From contig JAKAMV010000386.1 of assembly GCA_021812735.1 (NCBI GenBank), positions 1 through 8,572 on the forward strand: a stretch of DNA of 8,572 nucleotides. Direction: 5' to 3'. How positions within the stretch are numbered: the first letter of the stretch is position 1; every line of letters begins with the position of its first letter. Below are positions 1 through 8,572 of the stretch, one piece after another. The DNA is from Chloroflexota bacterium (lineage in GTDB: Bacteria > Chloroflexota > Limnocylindria > Limnocylindrales > CSP1-4). The notes beneath the pieces are model-generated. The model did not search any database. It saw only the letters and a program-made list of their open reading frames with translations, and was not told the origin of the DNA. Made by a program: the position numbers and the translations under genes.

Positions 1-9
1 GCAGCCACT

Positions 10-51
10 CCCGCCGCCCCGCCCCGCGGCACGCCCGCCGCCCCGCCCCGC
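10..51. repeat. Tandem 18-bp C-rich direct repeat upstream of gene 1
   Basis: The 18-mer CCCGCCGCCCCGCCCCGC occurs exactly at 10-27 and again at 34-51, a period of 24 bp. It sits directly upstream of the first gene and overlaps where its -35 region would lie. It may be simple slippage in a C-rich spacer; no function can be assigned. Confidence 0.7.
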
Positions 52-63
52 TATCATGCGGGC
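52..63 (+). promoter_or_regulatory. Candidate -10 element for a leaderless transcript
   Basis: TATCAT at 52-57 fits the TANNNT -10 consensus and is one of the few AT-rich hexamers near the gene. Counting its last base as -7 puts +1 at base 64, the first base of the GTG start codon. There is no Shine-Dalgarno sequence upstream of that GTG. The spacing TANNNT-N6-GTG is the typical layout of leaderless genes in GC-rich bacteria. No recognisable -35 hexamer is present. This is inference from spacing and could be chance. Confidence 0.42.
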
Positions 64-1857
64 GTGCTCCCACCGGAACCAGCGTCCGACCGGCCAGGAC
101 GCCGGTCCCGTCTGCTCGTCGTGCTCCTCGTCGCGGCCGCCATCCTGGCCCTCGCCGCGCTGCTTGCGTACCCGTTCCGCACCGAGATCCCGTTCTGGCC
201 CGGCCCCAATCGCCCCACGCCGGTGCCGACCGAGCCGCCCCTGACCCCAGCGCCCATCGCCACCGGCCAGGCGGTCGTGCCCGGTCCGGGCGCCACACCC
301 GAAGAAGCCGCGGACACCATGCCGCTCCACCGGCCCACCTTCCCCTACACCGGATCGCAGCCGTGGCAGATCGCCGTCGCGCCAGACGCCACCCGTGTCC
401 TCGAAGGCTACGCCTCGCGCCCCTCGTACCTGCCGGGCGAGACCCTCCGCCTCGCCGTCTCCACCACCGCCCCCTTCTACGACGTGCAGATCTTCCGTGC
501 CTCCGGCAGCGCGCCGGTCGCCGGGCCGTTCGTGCAGGTCGCCAGCATCGCCGGCCAGCCGGGGCGGTTGCAGCCACCCCCCACGGTCGATCCGGTGACG
601 AAGCTGGTGGCCGCGCGCTGGCGGTACGACGTCGTGTTCGCCATCCCCACGTCGTGGCGCTCGGGGATCTACCTCGTCCGGCTCTCCAGCAGCCAGGGCG
701 TCCAGTCGTACGTCCCGTTCGTCGTCCGCAGCCGGACCGCTCACCGGATCCTCGTCGTCTCGAGCGCCATGAACTGGGAGGCGTACAACCGCTGGGGTGG
801 GTCGAGCGTCTACACGAGCCAGGTGGGCGATCCGTTCCCCGGCGTGCACCGCGCGCTCGGGGTCTCGTTCGACCGGCCCTACGCGAGCGACGGGGGCGCC
901 GGGCAGCTCTTCTTCTTGGAGTTGCCCTTCGTCTCGTGGATTCTGCGCCAGCACCTCGACGTAGCCTTCACGACCGACTACGACCTCTCGCTCGATCCCG
1001 ACCGGCAGCCGTTGCCCCGCGTGGTCGTCTTCAATGGCCACGACGAGTACTGGGGCGTGCGGCTCTACCAATGGCTGGATCGGCACGTGAACCAGCTCGG
1101 TGACGTGGGACTGGCGATGCTCGCGGCCGACACGGGCTACTGGCCGGTGCAGTTCACGCACGAGACGGCCGACGGCCCGCGCGACATGCTCGTCTTCAAG
1201 AACGGACCGGTGCCGGCGTCGCTGCTGCCGCCGGGGGAGACGCCCGAGCCGACGGCGAGTGGCGCGCCTGAGGAAACGGCGTCGCCTGCAGGCGAGATCG
1301 AGGAGCGCAGCTCGCGGATCCTCTGGACGATCCCCGCGCACGGCCCGTATGTCGGCAGTCTGCCGGATCAGCCGATCTTCGGTGTGCATTACCAGGGAGT
1401 CACTACTGCGCTCGGCCGCTACTCGCTGGTCGAGCCTGGTCCGGAGGCGCCAGGTGGATCGGCCAGCGGCGCGCCTGCCAGCTCGGCCTCCGGCGCGGCA
1501 TCCAGCACCTTCGCGCGGCTCCTCGCGGGCACCGGGCTCGGCCCTGGCGATTCGCTCGGCTTCATCGCGGGCGGCGAGGTCGACGGCGTCAACGCCTCGT
1601 CCACCTGGTGGGGCCCGCTCGGTGGCCGCCACGACCATCTCTTCGCCGTTGCCGCGCTCATCCCCGGTCGGACCCCGCAGCTGCGCTGGACGGCTGAAGC
1701 GGTCTGGCGCGAGTTGCCGAGCGGCGGGCGGGTCTTCAGCTCAGGCACGTTCTATTGGGGCTGGGCGCTCGACCCGGCATGGGGGAGGGCACACGAGGTC
1801 CCGCCGGGGTTCGGTCAGCTGACGCGGAACATCGTGGCGTTTCTCGGCGGGGGATGA
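64..1857 (+). CDS. Membrane-anchored protein with N,N-dimethylformamidase large-subunit-type domain
   Basis: The product is 597 aa. Residues 1-15 are basic and polar (ending RRSR), residues about 16-37 form one hydrophobic helix, and a Pro/Thr-rich linker follows, so it is probably anchored in the membrane with the body outside. A beta-rich region (about 95-225) leads into the domain seen in the C-terminal part of the dimethylformamidase large subunit, with hallmarks MNWEAYNRWGG (236-246) and NGHDEYWG (324-331). In the characterised Paracoccus enzyme a mononuclear iron is held by two Tyr and one Glu; Tyr241, Tyr273 and Glu328 are the plausible counterparts by motif and order, which is my inference. 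Two low-complexity Ser/Ala/Pro/Glu inserts (about 385-415 and 457-482) interrupt the C-terminal half. Most relatives are uncharacterised, so amide hydrolysis is possible but not shown. The GTG at 64 is chosen because it includes the anchor and has a -10-like hexamer at the right distance; an ATG at 56 is out of frame. Confidence 0.85.
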   Translation: MLPPEPASDRPGRRSRLLVVLLVAAAILALAALLAYPFRTEIPFWPGPNRPTPVPTEPPLTPAPIATGQAVVPGPGATPEEAADTMPLHRPTFPYTGSQPWQIAVAPDATRVLEGYASRPSYLPGETLRLAVSTTAPFYDVQIFRASGSAPVAGPFVQVASIAGQPGRLQPPPTVDPVTKLVAARWRYDVVFAIPTSWRSGIYLVRLSSSQGVQSYVPFVVRSRTAHRILVVSSAMNWEAYNRWGGSSVYTSQVGDPFPGVHRALGVSFDRPYASDGGAGQLFFLELPFVSWILRQHLDVAFTTDYDLSLDPDRQPLPRVVVFNGHDEYWGVRLYQWLDRHVNQLGDVGLAMLAADTGYWPVQFTHETADGPRDMLVFKNGPVPASLLPPGETPEPTASGAPEETASPAGEIEERSSRILWTIPAHGPYVGSLPDQPIFGVHYQGVTTALGRYSLVEPGPEAPGGSASGAPASSASGAASSTFARLLAGTGLGPGDSLGFIAGGEVDGVNASSTWWGPLGGRHDHLFAVAALIPGRTPQLRWTAEAVWRELPSGGRVFSSGTFYWGWALDPAWGRAHEVPPGFGQLTRNIVAFLGGG

Positions 1858-1882
1858 CGGGGGCGCGTGCCCGCCGCCGCGC
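1858..1882. other. Short convergent intergenic gap
   Basis: Only 25 bp separate the stop codons of the convergent genes. A GGGC-gcgt-GCCC hairpin (1861-1872) could form in either transcript. Its stem is 4 bp and has no T-tract on either side, so it is at best a weak bidirectional termination or pause site. Confidence 0.25.
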
Positions 1883-3157
1883 TCACAGCCCCGCGACCGT
1901 CACCAGCACCAGCACCACCGACATCGCGGCCAAGGCGATCGTGACGCCCCAGCCGAGCGTCAAGTTGATCCTGCCGCTCGCCAGCCGCCCCAGCATCCGC
2001 CGGTCCGACGCCAGCAGCATCACGAAGACCAGCACGAACGGTAGCAGGAGCCCGTCGAGCACCTGCGAGAGGAACATCACCTGGATCAGCGGCAGCCCCG
2101 GGATCAACACGAAGAGCGCCGCGAACCCGACGAAGAACGCCAGCAACGCGTAGAACGCAGGCGCCTCGCGCCAGCTCCAGTCGACCCCCGCCTCCCAGCC
2201 GAACGCCTCGCACGCCGTGTAGGCGCTCGTCAGCGGGACCGTCCCGAGCCCCAGGAGCGAGGCCGCGAGCAGGCCGAGCGCGAAGAGCGTCTCCGCGCCC
2301 TTGCCCGCCAGCGGGCCCAACGCTCGCGCCGCGTCGGCCGCGTCGCTGATCACGATGCCGTGCGTCCAGAGCGTCGCCGCGCACGCCACCACGATGAAGC
2401 CGGCGACGGCGTTCGTGATCGTCGCCCCGAGCCCCACGTCGATCCGCGAGTACGGCAGATCCTCCGGTCCAAGGCGCTTGTCGACGACATATGCCTGGAT
2501 GAACGCCTGGCCCCAGGGCGTGATCGTGGTGCCCACGACGCCCACCACCGCCAGCCAATAGGTGGCGGTCAGGTTCCCGTGCGGGATGACCAGGGAAGTG
2601 GCCGCCTGGGCCCAGTCAGGCCGCGCCAGGAACGCCGAGATCACGTACGCCAGCGACGTCGCGATCCCGACGGCGACGAAGATGAGCTGGACGCGGCTGA
2701 AACTCCCCCGCGAGATCAGCAGGATGACCGCGACGGCCGAGAGTGCCGCGCTCACCGGGATCGGCACACCGAAGAGCGCGAGGGCCGCACCAATCCCCGC
2801 GAACTCGGCCACCGTATCGCCGAGGTTCGCGATGAGCATCGTGGCCACGGCGAAGACCGTCCAGCGCACCCCGAACCGGTCGCGGATCAGCCCCGAGAGC
2901 CCCTGGCCCGTGGCCAGCCCGAGGCGTGCCCCGATCTCCTGGGTGACGAACAGCACGAGCTGACTCGCCAGCACGACCCAGAGCAGCTGGTAGCCGAACT
3001 GGGCGCCGGCCAGCGAGTAGGTGGTGATCCCTCCCGCGTCGTTGTCGGCGAAGCCGCTGATCAGCCCCGGGCCAAGGACGGCGAGGATCGCGAGGCGCCG
3101 GAAGCGCATCCAGCGCCCGCCGCGGAGCGAGGAGAGCGCGGCACGGACCCAGCTCAC
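1883..3157 (-). CDS. NRAMP (SLC11)-family divalent cation carrier with non-canonical metal site
   Basis: The product is 424 aa with about 11 membrane helices, the usual core size of bacterial NRAMP carriers. Family landmarks are the helix 1 entry GPGLISG (29-35), the helix 3 segment LATGQGLSGLIRDRFG (81-96), the helix 6 segment GVVGTTITPWGQ (206-217) and the helix 10 segment LSQVLDGLLLPF (363-374). In Mn/Fe carriers helix 1 carries Asp-Pro-Gly-Asn and helix 6 Met-Pro-His. Here helix 1 reads D38-N-D-A-G-G and helix 6 reads T213-P-W, so the coordinating Met and the His are lost while one Asp and the helix 10 Gln365 remain. That argues for a hard cation such as Mg2+, as in the NRAMP-related magnesium carriers, rather than Mn2+ or Fe2+; this is inference. 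The GTG start lies one base after the stop of the upstream sensor gene, with no clear ribosome site, so translation is probably coupled. Met17 is a weaker alternative start. Confidence 0.92.
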   Translation of the reverse strand: MSWVRAALSSLRGGRWMRFRRLAILAVLGPGLISGFADNDAGGITTYSLAGAQFGYQLLWVVLASQLVLFVTQEIGARLGLATGQGLSGLIRDRFGVRWTVFAVATMLIANLGDTVAEFAGIGAALALFGVPIPVSAALSAVAVILLISRGSFSRVQLIFVAVGIATSLAYVISAFLARPDWAQAATSLVIPHGNLTATYWLAVVGVVGTTITPWGQAFIQAYVVDKRLGPEDLPYSRIDVGLGATITNAVAGFIVVACAATLWTHGIVISDAADAARALGPLAGKGAETLFALGLLAASLLGLGTVPLTSAYTACEAFGWEAGVDWSWREAPAFYALLAFFVGFAALFVLIPGLPLIQVMFLSQVLDGLLLPFVLVFVMLLASDRRMLGRLASGRINLTLGWGVTIALAAMSVVLVLVTVAGL

Positions 3158-3158
3158 C

Positions 3159-4424
3159 TCACGAGACCCGGCCGAAGACGCGCGGCAGCCGGCGCTTCCA
3201 GGCCGTGGGCAGGACCGTGTCGATGGCGTCGTCGACCGTCACGATCCCGAGGAGGACGCCCTTGTCGTCGACGACCGGCACGGCGAGCAGGTTGTAGCGG
3301 GCGACGACCTGCGCGACCTCGTCCTGCGGCGTGAGCGCACTGACCGCGACGGGTTCCTTGTGCATGAACTCACGGACGAGGGTATCCGGCTTGGCGACGA
3401 TCAGGTCGCGCAGCGAGAGGACGCCGACGAGTCGGCCTTGCGCATCGACGACATACACGTAGTAGATGGTCTCGGCGTCGGGCTCGAGCTCGCGCAGCCG
3501 CTCGATCGTCTGGGCTGCGGTCAAGTCTTCGGGGATCGCCACGTACGCGGTCGTCATGATGCCGCCGGCGGTGTCCTCCGGGTAGCCGAGCAGCTCGCGC
3601 ACCTCGTCGGCCTCGTCGCGTTCCATCAGCGGCAGAATCTCTGCCTTCGACGCCTCGGACAGGTCGGCAATCAGGTCGGCCGCGTCGTCCGGGCTCATCT
3701 CCTCGAGGATGTCCGCGGCGCGGGCTGGCTCCAGGTCCTCCAGCACGTCGACCTGGGTCTCGGGCTCCATCTCCTCCATCGCGTCGGCCACCGCCTCGTC
3801 GTCGAGGGAGGCGAGGACGCCCGCCCGGTCGCGCGGGGTGAGCTGGTCGATGATCGAGGCGAGGTCGGCCGGGTGCAGTTCACGCAGGCGCTGGTGGGGG
3901 ACGCGCAGGCGGATCGATGCGATCGAGGTCTCGAGCGGATCGACGTCGTCCCAGTCGATGTAGCGCTCGGGGATGTTCAGGTGGAGGTTGCGCGCGATCG
4001 TCCGCCAGGGTCCCTCGATGCCGAGGCGACGAAGCAGGCCCGCCGCCCCCACGTCGACGGCCACCAGGTGCAACTTGCCGTCGATCTCGTCGAGCCGCAG
4101 GTCGTTGACACGCACGACCCGCCGCCCGTCGATGTCGACGATCTGCTTGTCCTGGAGGTCCTGGTAGAGGAGGAGCTCGTTGGGACGCTGGCGGAACTTG
4201 CCGATGTCGATGGTCGCGGTCGACAGGCGCGCGCCAGTCTCGTCGAAGGTCGCGACGTCCGACCAAGGCACGAAGATCTTGCGTCGTCCGGTCGAGACGA
4301 CCAGGCCGGTGACCGGCGGGTACCGGTCGCCGATGGCCACGATGAGGTCAGCGACCTTGCCGATCGGCTCGCCTTGGCGATCGCGCACAGGCCGGCCGAT
4401 CACCTGGCTCAGGTAGAGCTGCAT
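3159..4424 (-). CDS. Stand-alone MgtE-type cytosolic sensor: PRC barrel, MgtE_N and paired CBS domains, no channel
   Basis: The 421-aa product is soluble, with no hydrophobic helix. Residues 1-60 look like a PRC-barrel (LSQVIGRPV near 5-13, KIFVPWSDV at 49-57), and residues about 82-130 resemble a second barrel. Residues about 178-280 are the acidic helical-repeat MgtE_N domain (LRELHPADLASIIDQL and similar repeats). The joint YPEDTAGGIMT (281-291) is the MgtE signature leading into CBS1 (about 289-345) and CBS2 (about 352-405). In MgtE these parts bind Mg2+ and close the pore through a plug helix. Here the chain stops after a short basic tail (408-421) where the plug helix and membrane domain would follow. 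The next gene, one base away, is an NRAMP-like carrier, so this protein most likely gates or regulates it according to cytosolic Mg2+ or nucleotide (inference). The ATG is supported by AGAGGTGG (4428-4435), ending 3 nt before it. Confidence 0.9.
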   Translation of the reverse strand: MQLYLSQVIGRPVRDRQGEPIGKVADLIVAIGDRYPPVTGLVVSTGRRKIFVPWSDVATFDETGARLSTATIDIGKFRQRPNELLLYQDLQDKQIVDIDGRRVVRVNDLRLDEIDGKLHLVAVDVGAAGLLRRLGIEGPWRTIARNLHLNIPERYIDWDDVDPLETSIASIRLRVPHQRLRELHPADLASIIDQLTPRDRAGVLASLDDEAVADAMEEMEPETQVDVLEDLEPARAADILEEMSPDDAADLIADLSEASKAEILPLMERDEADEVRELLGYPEDTAGGIMTTAYVAIPEDLTAAQTIERLRELEPDAETIYYVYVVDAQGRLVGVLSLRDLIVAKPDTLVREFMHKEPVAVSALTPQDEVAQVVARYNLLAVPVVDDKGVLLGIVTVDDAIDTVLPTAWKRRLPRVFGRVS

Positions 4425-4649
4425 CTGCCACCTCTGTGGGGCGCTGGCCCGACGCCCCCGGGGTGGCGCGCGACGCTGCTAGGCGCTAGCGGCCGCGCGG
4501 GGTTCCCGAGGTGGAGCGGACCGGCGCGATGGCCACGGCGCCCGAAGCGCCGCGGCGACTGGGTCCAGGTTCCACGGGGAGTTGGGAGCCTCCGATGCTT
4601 GTTCCGCGACGGCGCACACGCTGACGCAGTGCGTTGGGCGCGCACCGTC
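4425..4649 (-). promoter_or_regulatory. Predicted structured 5' leader of the sensor/carrier operon
   Basis: If transcription starts near 4649 from the promoter at 4656-4685, the operon has a leader of about 225 nt. In minus-strand RNA, bases 4650-4638 pair with 4607-4619 as 13 consecutive pairs, three of them G-U. The apical part can form a further ACGC/GCGT mini-stem (4634-4631 with 4627-4624). A second hairpin, GGCGC-UUCGG-GCGCC, lies near 4541-4555. The end carries the ribosome site AGAGGTGG. I looked for the M-box (magnesium) and yybP-ykoY (manganese) landmarks and did not find them, so no known riboswitch class is claimed. Confidence 0.4.
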
Positions 4650-4650
4650 G
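4607..4650 (-). ncRNA. 13-bp hairpin at the 5' end of the predicted leader
   Basis: Minus-strand RNA 4650-4638 (CGACGGUGCGCGC) pairs with 4619-4607 (GUGUGCGCCGUCG). The pairs at 4644/4613, 4641/4616 and 4639/4618 are G-U wobbles. On the plus strand these become A-C mismatches, so the stem is good only as minus-strand RNA, the sense strand of the operon. It begins within a base of the predicted transcription start. It may stabilise the mRNA or be part of a regulatory leader. Confidence 0.4.
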
Positions 4651-4655
4651 GGGTG

Positions 4656-4685
4656 ACGATAGCCCGGGCGTGGTCCGGGTGTCAA
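4656..4685 (-). promoter_or_regulatory. Sigma-70-type promoter TTGACA-N18-TATCGT for the sensor/carrier operon
   Basis: Read on the minus strand, bases 4685-4680 are TTGACA, a perfect -35 consensus. After an 18-bp spacer, bases 4661-4656 are TATCGT, a good -10. Such a pair is rare by chance in sequence this GC-rich, and it faces the sensor gene. The predicted +1 is about 4649. Confidence 0.6.
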
Positions 4686-4750
4686 TCGGCTGTCGCGGGC
4701 GTGTGGCTGTTCGCCGGGCGCGAGACTGCGGCCGTCCGGCCCTCGCCCTC
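4686..4750. other. Spacer between operon promoter and repeat arrays
   Basis: This short stretch upstream of the minus-strand promoter holds no recognised gene, operator or repeat. Confidence 0.5.
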
Positions 4751-4838
4751 TTCCCGCTCTCTTCCCGCTTTCTTCCCGCTGTCTTTCCGCTTTCTTCCCG
4801 CTGTCTTTCCGCTGTCTTTCCGCTTTCTTCCCGCTGTC
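4751..4838 (-). repeat. Eight tandem copies of an 11-bp unit
   Basis: On the plus strand there are eight head-to-tail units of TTYCCGCTNTC with no indels; variation is confined to position 3 (C/T) and position 9 (C/T/G). On the minus strand the unit is GANAGCGGRAA. The strand given is that of the core that caps the array. With an 11-bp period every reading frame cycles, giving Lys/Arg/Glu/Ser-rich peptides that are artefacts. The period is close to one turn of B-DNA, so each copy would present the same face. The array is purine-rich on the minus strand. Confidence 0.9.
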
Positions 4839-4863
4839 CGCCGACATCGCACGTCATGTGAAC
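4830..4863 (-). repeat. 34-bp direct repeat, copy 1 (cap of the 11-bp array)
   Basis: This is an exact 34-bp match to 4934-4967, offset 104 bp. It consists of the last 9 bp of the 11-bp array and a 25-bp tail. On the minus strand the tail begins GTTCACATGACGTGCGA and runs into the array, so the core precedes the tandem units. Confidence 0.9.
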
Positions 4864-4909
4864 CGGCCACGATCACGACCTCCGGCTGGTGGTCCGAGCC
4901 CTGACACTC

Positions 4910-4942
4910 TTTCCGCTGTCTTCCCGCCGTCCGCCCGCTGTC
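4910..4942 (-). repeat. Three degenerate 11-bp units beside the second cap
   Basis: Units TTTCCGCTGTC (4910-4920), TTCCCGCCGTC (4921-4931) and CGCCCGCTGTC (4932-4942) follow the same 11-bp pattern as the eight-copy array. They end in the same 25-bp cap. This is a shorter second instance of the same array-plus-cap module. Confidence 0.85.
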
Positions 4943-4967
4943 CGCCGACATCGCACGTCATGTGAAC
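4934..4967 (-). repeat. 34-bp direct repeat, copy 2
   Basis: Exact copy of 4830-4863. On the minus strand it begins GTTCACATGACGTGCGA at 4967 and continues into the 11-bp units at 4942-4910. Confidence 0.9.
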
Positions 4968-5116
4968 GGCGAGGCCCTCCCGCGCGGGGCTGGACGCAAG
5001 ACGGGCAGGTCGCGCGCCGACGCGGCGCCGTCCAGACTTCGCGCGATTCGAGGCCGAGCAGTGGCCCGGGTTCCGGCCGACGCCGCTCGCGTCCCAGCCG
5101 AGCGTGCACTCGGCCC
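4968..5116. other. Non-coding stretch between repeat families
   Basis: No convincing gene, RNA or promoter is seen. Open frames on both strands here are the long stop-free runs expected at this GC content, with Arg/Ala-rich translations and no ribosome site. Confidence 0.5.
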
Positions 5117-5138
5117 GGCTCGGGCGCTGGCACGCAGC
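5117..5138 (+). repeat. Partial third copy of the 73-bp repeat
   Basis: Twenty-two bases (GGCTCGGGCGCTGGCACGCAGC) match the inner part of the 73-bp repeat exactly. Just upstream, CGTGCACT at 5103-5110 matches the beginning of the repeat core, but the intervening bases have been lost. It reads as a deleted or decayed copy. Confidence 0.65.
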
Positions 5139-5274
5139 GTGGGTGCGCACCCGAGGCGAGCGTCCACTGACCTGAGCACGACGGACCGCGTGCCTCCGTC
5201 GCGCTCCCTCACGCGGCCGAGGTGGTGGCCCCCCGGGTTTCGTCGTGTGGTGAGGTGAGGCCACGTGGGCCGTA

Positions 5275-5347
5275 GCTCGTGCACTTGACGTGCGAATCCG
5301 CGGCCGCGGCGTGGCTCGGGCGCTGGCACGCAGCCTGGCTCGGGCGC
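5275..5347 (+). repeat. 73-bp direct repeat, copy 1
   Basis: Exact 73-bp match to 5384-5456, offset 109 bp. It begins with GTGCACTTGACGTGCGA at 5279-5295, passes through the palindrome CCGCGGCCGCGG (5298-5309), and ends in about 12-bp tandem units (TGGCTCGGGCGC, TGGCACGCAGCC, TGGCTCGGGCGC). The offset is not a multiple of three, so the two copies fall in different reading frames and are not a coding repeat. Confidence 0.93.
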
Positions 5348-5383
5348 CAGCGGCACCGCGGCCGGATGCGCGGCTGGCGCATG

Positions 5384-5456
5384 GCTCGTGCACTTGACGT
5401 GCGAATCCGCGGCCGCGGCGTGGCTCGGGCGCTGGCACGCAGCCTGGCTCGGGCGC
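5384..5456 (+). repeat. 73-bp direct repeat, copy 2
   Basis: Identical to 5275-5347. Its last bases form a hairpin with what follows: GGCGCTG (5452-5458) pairs with CAGCGCC (5467-5473) across an 8-nt loop. Identity over 73 bp suggests recent duplication or gene conversion. Confidence 0.93.
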
Positions 5457-5580
5457 TGGCGCGGCGCAGCGCCGGACCTTGTCGAGATCGTGCGGGAGAG
5501 TGCCGGTGCTGCTCGGCGAGAAGGGCGCCGCGCCGCTCCACGTGCCCGCTGGCCCGCGACGTCGGCCGAAGCATCGTGCA
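5457..5580. other. Non-coding stretch between repeat families
   Basis: Apart from the hairpin shared with the end of the 73-bp repeat (5452-5473), nothing recognisable is seen here. Confidence 0.45.
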
Positions 5581-5606
5581 TGGCACCACGCGGCGTGGTA
5601 AACGAC
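5581..5606. repeat. 26-bp imperfect direct repeat, copy 1, with a 15-bp palindrome
   Basis: It matches 5631-5656 at 22 of 26 positions, and the last 14 bases (GCGTGGTAAACGAC) are exact. This copy also contains the perfect inverted repeat ACCACGC-G-GCGTGGT (5585-5599). The palindrome is damaged in copy 2. It could be a protein-binding site, but no regulator is identifiable. Confidence 0.7.
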
Positions 5607-5630
5607 CAGGAACTGGGCGAACGGGGCGGT

Positions 5631-5656
5631 TGCCACCAACCTGCGTGGTAAACGAC
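5631..5656. repeat. 26-bp imperfect direct repeat, copy 2
   Basis: Second copy, offset 50 bp from the first, with GCGTGGTAAACGAC at 5643-5656 exact and four mismatches in the first 12 bases. Confidence 0.7.
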
Positions 5657-5682
5657 AACAAGAGCGGGGCCGAGCCGGCGCC

Positions 5683-5782
5683 CAGCGGCCTGGCGCGCGT
5701 GGCCGCACAGCGAGGGGGCTGGCGTGGCCGCCCAGCGAGCTGGCGCGCGTGGCGGCCCAGCGAGCTGGCGCGCGTGGCGGCA
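5683..5782 (+). repeat. Four tandem copies of a 25-bp unit
   Basis: The units are 5683-5707, 5708-5732, 5733-5757 and 5758-5782. All are 25 bp; units 3 and 4 differ only in the last base, and unit 2 is the most diverged. The consensus starts CAGCGAGCTGGCGCGCGTGG. The 25-bp period shifts frame at each copy, so this is not a coding repeat. Confidence 0.88.
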
Positions 5783-5899
5783 CCGACCCCTCTGGCCGCC
5801 AGACCGCTGTCTGCATCGCCACGCAGTACGTTCGTCCTGGTGCATGGCGGTACGATCGGGTGGCCGAGCGGCACAGGGCCGTCGCGTACCTTGAAGGGT
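5783..5899. other. Upstream region of the GAF-GGDEF gene
   Basis: No gene is seen. Two -10-like hexamers lie on the plus strand: TACGAT at 5851-5856 and TACCTT at 5887-5892. The second lies 7 bp before the in-frame GTG at 5900, which would allow a nearly leaderless transcript. Neither has a convincing -35. Either could drive the downstream cyclase gene. Confidence 0.3.
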
Positions 5900-5965
5900 G
5901 TGGACGGGACGCACCAGAGTGGACCCGTGTCTACGGCGAGGGGCGGGGCGGCCTCTTCGGGCAGC

Positions 5966-8434
5966 ATGTCGGCCGCGACGACGAGCGGGATGGCCGCGCT
6001 GTCCGGTGCGGCTGCCGCGACGCAGGGCACCGTAGCCGCGCCGGCGGCTGTGGCGGCCGACGACGCCCTTCTGGCACGTGCAAACGCGGACGCGCCGCCG
6101 ATCGATGGGGCCCGGTCTGAGCTCTCGACCGCGGCCGCCCCCGACTCGGCCCCCGCCGCCCCCGATCCGGCCTCCGCTGCCGACCACCCGCGAGCCGCCC
6201 CCGACCACCCGCGAGCCGCCGCCGCCGCCCCCGATTCGGCCCCCGGTCCAACCCCCCGCGGCGACACCACCGAGCGACTGCGCGCGCTCCTGGACGTCGC
6301 GCGCGAGCTCACCCGCACGTTCGACCTGTCGACCATCCTGCGCACCATCGTGCGCTCCGTGAACTGGCTCGTCGGCACCGACCTCGCGATCATCAGCCTG
6401 CGCGTCGACGATCAGGTCCTGAGACCCGTCGCCTGGGACGGACTCCCCGCAGACGTTGGATCCCTCGCGCCACTGCCCGCCGCCGCGCCCTTCGTCGCCG
6501 ACCTGCTCGCCGGACGGACCTGGACCTGCGACGACGCCGCCGAACCACCGGCCGGGCTCGAGCTGGTCGCCTGGAAACACTACGCGGCACACGCGCTCGT
6601 ACCCCTCATGCGCGACGGCCACGCCGTCGGGCTGCTCGAAGCCGCCTGGCGGGAGCCACACGCCTGGAGCGCCGAGGAGCTGGCGTTCCTGGAGATGATC
6701 GCGAGCCAGGCGGCGATCGCGATCCACAACGCCGACGCGGTCGCCGAATCCCACCGCTGGGCGGCGCAGCTCGCCGTCCTGCAGGCATCGATCAGCCGAC
6801 TCAACCGGCTCAACTCGGTCGAGTCGGTCGGTCGGGCGATCGTGGAGGAGACCCGCCGCATCGTCGATTACCACAACTGCCGCGTCTACCTGCTCCAACC
6901 ACCGGACCTGCTCGAGCCGATCGCGTCTGGCGGCGAGGTGGGCAGCTACGCTGACATCCCGGCCGACCTGCTGCGGACGAAAGTCGGCGTCGGCTTCACG
7001 GGCTGGGTCGCGCAGCACGACGAGCCGCTGGTGCTCGACGACGCGGGAGCCGATCCACGTGGCGCGAGAATCCCCGGCACGCCCGACCTCGCCGAGTCGA
7101 TGGTGGTCGTGCCCATGCATTTCGACGACCGCGTGATCGGCGTAGTGACGCTCTCGAAGCTCGGCCTGCGCCAGTTCGACAAGCGTGATCTGCACGTGAT
7201 GAGCATCCTGGCGGACGCCGCCGGGAGTGCCATCGAGAGCGCTCGGGCGTTCGAGGAGGTGCATCGGCGCGAGCGGGAGATGCGCAGCCTCCTCGCGCTC
7301 TCGGGCGAGGTGGCCGCCACCCTGGACCCCCAGCGCGCTGCCCACCTGGCCGCCCGGCACATCGCGAACGTCTTCGAGGCGGACAGCGTGGCGATCATCC
7401 TCTGGCGTCGGGAGCGCAACGGCATCGCCACGCTGGGCATGTACCCGCAGCCTGAGGGACCCGTGCCAGAGTTCAGGGGCCTCGACGCGCACCCGCTGCT
7501 CAAGCGCGTGATGGCCGAGCAGGAGCGCACCGTGGTCCGCACAGACGATCCACTGGCCGATCCCGCCGAGGCAGCGCGGCTGCGCGAGCTCGGGATGGCG
7601 ATGAGCGTCTTCGTGCCGCTCGTCGCGCAGAATGCCGCGATCGGTCTCCTGCGGCTGCGCTTCGTCGCGCCTCGACCGTTCGACGCGGCGGCGCTCGACT
7701 TCGCGCAGGCGATGGCGAACGAAGCGGCCATGGCGCTCGAGAATGCGCGCCTGTACGAGGCGGCACGCGACCTCGCGGACCACGACCCGCTGACGAACTT
7801 CTACAACTACCGTTACCTGCACGAACGGCTCGGCGAGGAGCTGCTCCGCGCGAGGCGCGCACGCCGGTCGGTGGGCCTGCTGATGATCGACCTGGACGAC
7901 TTCAAGCTCGTCAACGACACGCTCGGGCACCGGGTGGGCGACCAGGTCTTGCGGTGGGCCGCCGACCTGATCGGCTCGGCGCTGCGCGAGTCGGATGTGC
8001 CGGCGCGCTACGGCGGCGACGAGTTCGCCGTGATCCTGCCGGATGCCGATCGGGTGGCTGCGCGAGCGGTGGCGGCACGCATCGTGGGCGCGTTCCGCGA
8101 TGCGGCGTTCCAGGTGACCGACCGTCCGCCAGTGTCGATCGGTGCGTCGATCGGGATCGCCTCGTTTCCGGCTGACGCGCACTTGGCGGGGGAGCTGATC
8201 GCAGCGGCCGATGCCGACCTGTACCGGGCGAAGCGTGCCGAAGCGGACCGGGCGGCCGGCGACGATCCTGCGCCGGCGCGCCACGACGACTGCGCTGGGG
8301 CGAACGCCGAGACCGACCGACCGGCCGACGAGGTGGCCGATGGGGCCGACCGACCGGCTGAGGATGTGGCCGATGGGGCCGACCGACCGGCCGACGACCC
8401 CGGGGCTTCGGCCCACAGGCTTCCGGCAGTCTGA
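5966..8434 (+). CDS. Soluble diguanylate cyclase with three GAF domains and C-terminal GGDEF domain
   Basis: From the ATG at 5966 the product is 822 aa with no membrane helix, so it is a cytosolic sensor that makes c-di-GMP from two GTP. An Ala/Pro/Asp-rich disordered head (1-100) precedes GAF1 (about 103-255), GAF2 (about 265-425) and GAF3 (about 435-600), joined by helical linkers. The GGDEF domain spans about 605-760: entry DHDPLTNFYNYR (605-616), metal Asp642 in IDLDDFK, then NDTLGH, and the active loop RYGGDEF (681-687) with metal Asp685. The allosteric inhibition motif R674-E-S-D677 is intact, so the enzyme should be active and product-inhibited. No EAL or HD-GYP domain is present. GAF ligands cannot be read from sequence. 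A hydrophilic tail (761-822) contains 11-aa repeats. The start is uncertain: in-frame GTGs at 5900 and 5927 and an ATG at 5990 are alternatives, none with a strong ribosome site. The open frame continues upstream into the repeats, but that part is unlikely to be translated. Confidence 0.88.
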   Translation: MSAATTSGMAALSGAAAATQGTVAAPAAVAADDALLARANADAPPIDGARSELSTAAAPDSAPAAPDPASAADHPRAAPDHPRAAAAAPDSAPGPTPRGDTTERLRALLDVARELTRTFDLSTILRTIVRSVNWLVGTDLAIISLRVDDQVLRPVAWDGLPADVGSLAPLPAAAPFVADLLAGRTWTCDDAAEPPAGLELVAWKHYAAHALVPLMRDGHAVGLLEAAWREPHAWSAEELAFLEMIASQAAIAIHNADAVAESHRWAAQLAVLQASISRLNRLNSVESVGRAIVEETRRIVDYHNCRVYLLQPPDLLEPIASGGEVGSYADIPADLLRTKVGVGFTGWVAQHDEPLVLDDAGADPRGARIPGTPDLAESMVVVPMHFDDRVIGVVTLSKLGLRQFDKRDLHVMSILADAAGSAIESARAFEEVHRREREMRSLLALSGEVAATLDPQRAAHLAARHIANVFEADSVAIILWRRERNGIATLGMYPQPEGPVPEFRGLDAHPLLKRVMAEQERTVVRTDDPLADPAEAARLRELGMAMSVFVPLVAQNAAIGLLRLRFVAPRPFDAAALDFAQAMANEAAMALENARLYEAARDLADHDPLTNFYNYRYLHERLGEELLRARRARRSVGLLMIDLDDFKLVNDTLGHRVGDQVLRWAADLIGSALRESDVPARYGGDEFAVILPDADRVAARAVAARIVGAFRDAAFQVTDRPPVSIGASIGIASFPADAHLAGELIAAADADLYRAKRAEADRAAGDDPAPARHDDCAGANAETDRPADEVADGADRPAEDVADGADRPADDPGASAHRLPAV
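6181..6220 (+). repeat. In-gene 21-bp tandem repeat (7-aa) in the disordered head
   Basis: CGACCACCCGCGAGCCGCC occurs at 6181-6199 and 6202-6220. The 21-bp period keeps frame and gives two DHPRAA blocks in the Ala/Pro-rich head of the cyclase. It is flanked by similar APDSAP blocks, indicating expansion of a flexible linker. Confidence 0.75.
8315..8401 (+). repeat. In-gene 33-bp tandem repeat (11-aa) in the cyclase tail
   Basis: Two full 33-bp units (8315-8347 and 8348-8380) and a 21-bp partial (8381-8401) encode DRPADEVADGA, DRPAEDVADGA and DRPADDP. The period is in frame and the substitutions are conservative, as expected for a translated acidic tail. Unlike the intergenic repeats, it is therefore a coding repeat. 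Confidence 0.85.
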
Positions 8435-8572
8435 GCGGCGAGCGGGACGGGGGGCTGCGGCGGATGGCCACCCTCCGAGACAGTTCGCGAGCGCCGTGGG
8501 CGACGGCCCGCGCTCCGGAAGGCGCGGCCGCGACCCGTGCGCAGGCGGGCACGCTGCCGTCGGCGAGGGCCC
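8435..8572. other. 3' flank of the cyclase gene; possible hairpin and possible start of a next gene
   Basis: CCGCGC (8508-8513) and GCGCGG (8522-8527) can form a 6-bp hairpin without a T-tract, so a terminator is doubtful. An ATG at 8464, preceded by GGGGGG 12 nt upstream, opens a plus-strand frame to the window edge (MATLRDSSRAPWATAR...). It is too short to recognise and may be chance. Confidence 0.25.

Follow-up and report, generated by a model that had tools for sequence, protein, structure and literature searches.

Can the cytosolic Mg2+ sensor of the MgtE channel work as a separate subunit that gates a transporter of another fold? This question is raised by two adjoining minus-strand genes on a contig of a Chloroflexota bacterium (GenBank assembly GCA_021812735.1, contig JAKAMV010000386.1, positions 1 to 8,572; this whole stretch of 8,572 nucleotides is called the window below). 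The first gene encodes a soluble protein with PRC, MgtE_N and CBS domains (421 aa, read from ATG), hereafter the sensor, and the second encodes an NRAMP-family carrier (424 aa, read from GTG). An earlier note, made from the sequence alone, had proposed that a detached MgtE sensor gates an NRAMP carrier here. The present analysis supports the pairing and revises the type of carrier. The best explanation is a two-piece Mg2+ importer, in which a Mg2+ carrier is feedback-gated by a detached MgtE-type sensor, and we give it a probability of about 0.6.

The carrier belongs to the NRMT branch by sequence and binding-site motif

The carrier matched the Pfam Nramp family (PF01566) with 286 bits. In the comparison with solved structures it scored 334 bits against EleNRMT (7qia) and at most 98 bits against other NRAMPs. 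According to PMC8806188, the metal site of canonical NRAMPs is formed by DxxN and A/CxxM, whereas that of NRMTs is formed by DxxG and TxxA/T. Both motifs of the window carrier are of the NRMT type (Table 1). The canonical NRAMP/MntH protein DraNramp (5kte) shares PF01566 membership with it, but the two align with only 98 bits and the DxxN/A-x-x-M site is lacking in the window carrier.

The same motifs were examined in 58 rows of relatives from 53 loci. These rows include some fragments and tandem copies, and L115 repeats L001, the same contig being counted twice in the motif, ligand and gap tallies. The TM1 motif was DxxG in 57 rows and DAGA in one; the TM6 motif was TxxT in 48, TxxA in 7 and TxxS in 3. 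Neither the window carrier nor any of the 58 rows had Asn or Met at the canonical metal-site places, and all had Trp or Tyr at the position of the canonical histidine. The helix-3 glutamate (E118 in the window carrier) was Glu in 47 of 58 rows and the helix-10 glutamine (Q365) was Gln in 43, with 6 gaps. These two residues align with Glu133 and Gln379 of EleNRMT, which also shares the PF01566 branch and DxxG and likewise has Trp where the first histidine of helix 6b would be. EleNRMT differs in having TxxA instead of TxxT, and the accessible text of PMC8806188 describes it without any sensor protein.

The NRAMP-like family assignment of the earlier note therefore holds, but the carrier is not a canonical Mn/Fe NRAMP (334 versus 98 bits; DxxG/TxxT), and a canonical NRAMP under Mg2+ control is ruled out. 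By sequence and binding-site motif the carrier is a member of the Mg2+-transporting NRMT branch, and its substrate is likely Mg2+. The idea of an NRAMP controlled by Mg2+ is thereby recast as product feedback, acting on a carrier that likely imports Mg2+.

The sensor keeps the MgtE regulatory domains and most Mg2+ ligands

The proposed soluble PRC, MgtE_N and CBS-CBS make-up was borne out by Pfam, which found no PF01769 channel domain in the sensor; the protein stops at residue 421. Its AlphaFold model (mean pLDDT 84, pTM 0.52, last residues below 50) matched MgtE cytosolic-domain structures in Foldseek with E values of about 1e-20 to 1e-23 and TM-scores of 0.78–0.84 by target length. When sensor residues 174–404 were aligned with Thermus MgtE, 104 of 234 positions were identical.

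The Mg2+-site residues named for Thermus MgtE in PMC5882242 are D91, D95, D226, D247, D250 and E59, and D247 and D250 were mutated as parts of Mg4 and Mg5, which that paper describes as sites bridging to the plug helix. D91, D95, D247 and D250 correspond to the identical residues D246, D250, D399 and D402 of the sensor, and E59 corresponds to D214. Among the MgtE ATP-site residues named in PMC5529423 (Y170, R187, D188 and F227), the first three are kept. The PRC sensors at carrier loci (50 rows, 49 distinct) had Asp at D91 in 50 rows, at D95 in 48 (Glu in the other 2), at D247 in 50 and at D250 in 47.

After these ligands, the MgtE continuation (EEATEDI... and then the channel) is swapped for a short basic tail, which in the window sensor is TVLPTAWKRRLPRVFGRVS (19 residues) and in relatives is typically DAID..LPTAWKKRLPRLF. 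The typical form was found in many Chloroflexi, in Thermoleophilia and at two archaeal-labelled loci, and a shorter tail of the KRKRRKV type at Nitrospirae-labelled loci. Similar basic tails occur in most relatives, with L057, L078 and L094 differing, and the same tail is present on some sensors without a nearby carrier. Contrary to the earlier note, the sensor does not end exactly at the plug helix, since it retains the D399/D402 equivalents and continues into the tail. Compared with the Thermus MgtE channel (2yvy/2zy9), it shares MgtE_N and CBS homology and most Mg2+ ligands, but it has no channel, most of its plug is replaced by the basic tail, and PRC units are added.

Sensor and carrier genes are linked across genomes

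The coordinates, the strand and the TGA-G-GTG junction of the pair were all confirmed: the sequence runs ...TCG TGA G GTG AGC from the sensor end to the carrier start. A scan for sensor relatives gave at least 581 confirmed stretches, of which the best 80 were taken; taxon labels are those of the sequence records. A channel-less PRC sensor was present at 57 of these 80 loci, together with a carrier at 45, with a DUF1003 gene at 9 and with neither at 3 (L037, L012 and L043, the last two cut by the locus end). The labels among the sensor loci include Chloroflexi, Thermoleophilia, Nitrospirae, Euryarchaeota, Methanomicrobia and Oligoflexia. Among 49 sensor-carrier pairs on the same strand, 14 have a gap of -4 nt and 10 have one of +15 nt. 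Two carrier genes were seen beside one sensor at L002:4119-6591, L118:2224-5043 and L114.

A survey of 151 Chloroflexota genomes gave 137 MgtE_N matches, 54 channel-bearing and 83 channel-less. Of the latter, 78 were counted after five marginal MgtE_N rows were dropped; five PF01769 rows below the cut-off were also dropped. NRAMP matches were listed up to 150 rows, and the adjacency counts of channel-bearing and channel-less MgtE_N proteins alike are therefore minimum values. These rows were divided at a score gap (368/330 bits) into 44 canonical-score and 106 NRMT-like rows. At least 46 of the 78 channel-less sensors lay no more than 3 kb from a listed NRMT-like gene, versus 1 of the 54 channel-bearing MgtEs among the matches listed (G021; this MgtE, at L117, also has PRC-like N-terminal residues). 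When the flanks of the other 32 sensors were fetched, two more carriers were found (L085 and L094), which raised the count to 48 of 78, along with one odd case, L110. Viewed from the carriers, and again among the matches listed, 48 of 106 NRMT-like proteins adjoined a sensor versus 0 of 44 canonical-score NRAMPs. Together with the scan of relatives, the survey for channel-less MgtE_N-CBS proteins next to a carrier, which the earlier note had suggested, found a neighbourhood conserved in several phyla.

The odd case (L110:3289-5831) consists of two frames that share 4 bases, one coding for phosphofructokinase and MgtE_N domains and the other for CBS and Nramp domains; it is either a frameshifted large fusion or an unusual gene pair.

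The two proteins also occurred together at the genome level. Among the matches listed, an NRAMP-family gene was present in 68 of 69 sensor genomes versus 16 of 82 others, the sole exception being G068, and an NRMT-like gene in 62 of 69 versus 3 of 82 (Fisher 2e-30, relatedness ignored). Where a channel-bearing MgtE was present, 13 of 46 genomes had a listed NRMT-like gene; where it was absent, 52 of 105 did (p 0.02, relatedness ignored). This lower frequency beside channel-bearing MgtE fits the two being alternatives.

Natural fusions join sensor and carrier in one chain

The suggested survey extended to fused versions, and two intact fusions, P0026 and P0027, were found among 12 candidates examined. 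Each has 882 aa, they are 94% identical, and their order is sensor-linker-carrier, with the cytosolic sensor ahead of the carrier. P0027 retains the residues equivalent to D91, D95, D247 and D250. In the search that gave the fusions, many relatives are proteins of 480-510 aa with the sensor domains only (e.g. P0128, source name Acidimicrobiales), and at the related locus L047 sensor and carrier are separate genes.

The other ten candidates were rejected. Out-of-frame stretches in P0004, P0005, P0006, P0007 and P0086 look like frameshifts from assembly; P0028, P0043, P0111 and P0131 belong to the same kind as P0026 and P0027 but contain damaged stretches; and P0134, with an apparently clean junction, starts inside MgtE_N.

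M-box riboswitches precede related sensors

At Rfam gathering scores, a same-strand M-box was found ahead of the sensor in at least 6 of 35 related loci (L016, L018, L019, L020, L021 and L023, labelled Actinomycetes or Thermoleophilia). This count is a lower bound, because at four of the 35 loci (L005, L025, L034 and L046) fewer than 400 bases upstream of the sensor were covered. The carriers at the six M-box loci share the DAGG/TTIT motif of the window carrier, which favours Mg2+ as the substrate of this carrier type. No manganese riboswitch was among the Rfam matches in the 35 loci.

The sensor also occurs beside DUF1003 and with MgtE-like C-terminal regions

At nine actinomycete loci, a gene for a DUF1003 protein (PF06210) lies next to the sensor gene or overlaps with it (near 5211; L054, L055, L056, L061, L063, L065, L069, L071 and L072; Pfam-confirmed for L063). 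In 100 Actinomycetota genomes, for which 66 of 80 MgtE_N, 19 of 34 DUF1003 and 50 of 99 NRAMP rows were used, 21 of the 66 MgtE_N matches adjoined an NRAMP, 14 adjoined a DUF1003 gene and none adjoined both. Among the 14 DUF1003 neighbours is one (G198) that scores under the Pfam cut-off and sits at the end of its contig. One weak MgtE_N row among those omitted (G194, 25.7 bits) adjoins an NRAMP (L133), and none of the other omitted Actinomycetota NRAMP rows was seen near a sensor. Two Chloroflexota sensors without a carrier also adjoin DUF1003 (L100:1713-2450 and L105:3792-4358), and L100 belongs to G068, the sensor genome without an NRAMP match. Since this sensor type adjoins DUF1003 too, the NRAMP link is not exclusive.

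Seven of the 21 NRAMP-adjoining Actinomycetota proteins are longer (about 600-630 aa) and contain PRC, MgtE_N and CBS domains followed by a C-terminal region, in which the Pfam MgtE-channel match is below the cut-off (3) or absent (4). Similar long proteins in G171, G200, G224 and G235 have no adjoining carrier, and each of these genomes lists one NRMT-like gene. At L117:3441-5237 and L121-L127, an NRMT carrier is directly preceded by a PRC-MgtE_N-CBS protein of about 600-630 aa whose C-terminus is MgtE-like, although in several the similarity is weak or goes undetected; this is possibly an intermediate or a second arrangement of the same module. A further protein of 934 aa is encoded at L120:2300-5104 on the minus strand, in a frame that matched MgtE_N twice and the MgtE channel once.

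Taken together, PRC-MgtE_N-CBS may tentatively be regarded as a portable Mg2+-sensing subunit, which would be detached from or fused with NRMT, placed on an MgtE-like membrane region that is itself next to an NRMT, or encoded beside DUF1003.

Features and surroundings of the gene pair

The features of the gene pair are collected in Table 1. The promoter-like site lies about 230 bases upstream of the sensor and was the only one in 4300-5300, versus a mean of 0.0 in shuffled sequences. A tandem repeat with a 33-base unit and 2.7 copies (4749-4838) was noticed further upstream. According to Pfam, the neighbours in the window are a DMFA2_C-domain protein (64-1857, plus strand) and a GAF/GGDEF protein (about 5279-8434, plus strand), both of which look unrelated to the pair. 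The listed start of the GAF/GGDEF protein falls within a stretch rich in repeats; the true start probably lies further downstream.

Table 1. Positions in the window of the sensor gene, the carrier gene and their elements.
Feature	Position	Strand	Basis
Sensor gene, soluble PRC-PRC-MgtE_N-CBS-CBS protein, 421 aa	3159..4424	-	ORF, Pfam, Foldseek
First PRC-barrel, residues 3-57; second PRC stretch follows	4254..4418	-	PF05239, 55.2 bits, two stretches
MgtE_N, residues 183-284, with D246 and D250 (= D91, D95)	3573..3878	-	Pfam 94 bits, alignment
CBS pair, residues 285-402, with D399 and D402 (= D247, D250, plug-helix start)	3219..3572	-	Pfam, alignment
Short basic C-terminal tail, residues 403-421, replacing most of plug helix and channel	3162..3218	-	Alignment, model
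One-base gap from the sensor's TGA stop to the carrier's GTG start	3158..3158	-	Sequence
Carrier gene, NRMT-type PF01566 protein, 424 aa	1883..3157	-	Pfam, comparison with solved structures
TM1 metal-site motif D40-A-G-G43 (DxxG)	3029..3040	-	Sequence; motif per PMC8806188
TM6 metal-site motif T210-T-I-T213 (TxxT), then P-W replacing the canonical histidine	2519..2530	-	Sequence; PMC8806188
Putative Shine-Dalgarno-like AGAGGTGG ahead of the sensor ATG	4428..4435	-	Sequence; the name is our reading
Promoter-like TTGACA-18-TATCGT upstream of the sensor	4656..4685	-	Consensus match only

Discussion

The association of the two genes and the idea of feedback are already known, because both were published by Shin et al. 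in 2014 (PMC4072509), who reported a gene with homology to the cytoplasmic domain of MgtE next to most nrmT genes and speculated about feedback regulation or chaperone activity for this MgtE-N-like fragment. The window is a well-preserved further example of such a pair, an NRMT gene with an adjoining channel-less MgtE-N gene. An M-box precedes a subset of the pairs of Shin et al. and is not required there; the window has none. The accessible main text of that paper does not mention PRC units, a basic tail, fusions or DUF1003. A literature search, mostly of non-subscription sources and not exhaustive, found no later work on or test of the MgtE-like partner of NRMT, and PMC8806188, PMC9606685, PMC10606218 and PMC9276622 make no mention of a sensor partner in the accessible passages that treat MgtE or NRMT. 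New in the present analysis are the co-occurrence counts and quantitative linkage, the tail, the natural fusions and a second family of partners, DUF1003.

In the two-piece Mg2+ importer, the two genes would form a translationally coupled Mg2+-uptake operon. The NRMT carrier would admit Mg2+, probably largely hydrated and without proton coupling, by analogy with what is reported for EleNRMT, and the soluble protein would be a detached MgtE-type regulatory subunit in contact with the cytosolic face of the carrier, where the PRC units or the tail may serve as docking parts. At high cytosolic Mg2+, the ion would form bridges between MgtE_N, the two CBS domains and the aspartates at the plug start, and the closed sensor would keep the carrier inactive. 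When Mg2+ drops, the sensor would open and transport would restart.

A number of observations weigh against this reading. The Mg5 site is just half kept in the sensor, because D226 is replaced by Asn (N378), as in 42 of 50 relatives, and the ATP-site residue F227 is replaced by Leu (L379), which is likewise found in 16 of 22 channel-bearing MgtEs of the comparison set. In the fusion P0027, D226 is Arg, and D188 is the only one kept of Y170, R187, D188 and F227. Asp at D91 was also found in 35 of 36 sensor rows without a nearby carrier and in 21 of 22 channel-bearing MgtEs; the ligands therefore point to Mg2+ sensing and not to NRMT coupling. An Rfam search of the whole window at E values up to 1 matched no family, hence no M-box. 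The experiments of Shin et al. count on the same side: Ca_c0685 and Ca_c3329 transported without the MgtE-N-like fragment, and co-expressing the fragment with the Acidobacterium capsulatum carrier did not improve the Mg2+ rescue (PMC4072509). The AlphaFold model of P0027 had a pTM of 0.52 and a low-confidence linker (459-474) and gave no confident interface, and for that reason no interface is claimed. Its alignment had 38 rows, of which five were fused proteins spanning both halves and three of those were damaged; with so few fused rows, the absence of a modelled interface says little. Of the earlier proposal that a detached MgtE sensor gates a different transporter fold, the pairing is thus upheld by neighbourhood, co-occurrence, fusions and ligands, and the contact between the two has no confident model.

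One alternative is that the carrier imports Mn2+ or another divalent metal and that an altered sensor responds to Mn2+. The A. capsulatum NrmT, which adjoins an MgtE-N-like gene, is described as a likely Mn2+ transporter that rescued a Mn2+ transport mutant and, weakly, a Mg2+ transport mutant (PMC4072509), and PMC8806188 refers to Mn2+ transport by EleNRMT. The replacement of D226, other changes in the sensor and the lack of a riboswitch in the window are compatible with this alternative. However, the riboswitches at related loci are M-boxes, upstream of carriers with the window's own motif, with no manganese riboswitch among the matches, and NRMT-like genes and channel-bearing MgtE are distributed as alternatives would be. 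A Mn2+ pair is therefore considered unlikely.

The sensor could also be a Mg2+-responsive protein that acts elsewhere, as a chaperone, a buffer or a regulator of another membrane protein, and is merely co-expressed with the carrier. Sensors without a nearby carrier are common (about 30 of the 78 in Chloroflexota even with flanks, some at contig ends), the Actinomycetota sensors beside DUF1003 instead of NRAMP likewise tell against the two-piece importer, the P0027 model predicts no interface, and a chaperone role was the alternative offered by Shin et al. (PMC4072509). In contrast, the natural fusions place sensor and carrier in one chain, and nearly every sensor genome (68 of 69) has an NRAMP-family gene, the exception, G068, having DUF1003 beside its sensor. 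On this balance an action elsewhere appears quite improbable. That the sensor is a functionless, decaying remnant of a split MgtE, as the lack of the channel and of most of the plug helix might suggest, is hardly credible given its Mg2+ ligands kept across phyla, its strong coding bias (GC3 0.92) and a linkage to the carrier kept in many lineages.

The way in which NRMT Mg2+ importers are switched off does not look settled, and the intact natural fusions together with the tail make the gating idea directly testable. If direct gating by the two-piece importer is true, a channel and a LeuT-type carrier, whose folds are unrelated, are under the control of one Mg2+ sensor, which would make this a clear-cut example of the transfer of a regulatory domain from one transport mechanism to another. 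If the more tentative portable-subunit reading is also true, DUF1003 would be a Mg2+-controlled membrane protein, and its pairing with the sensor would offer a functional lead for the DUF1003 family.

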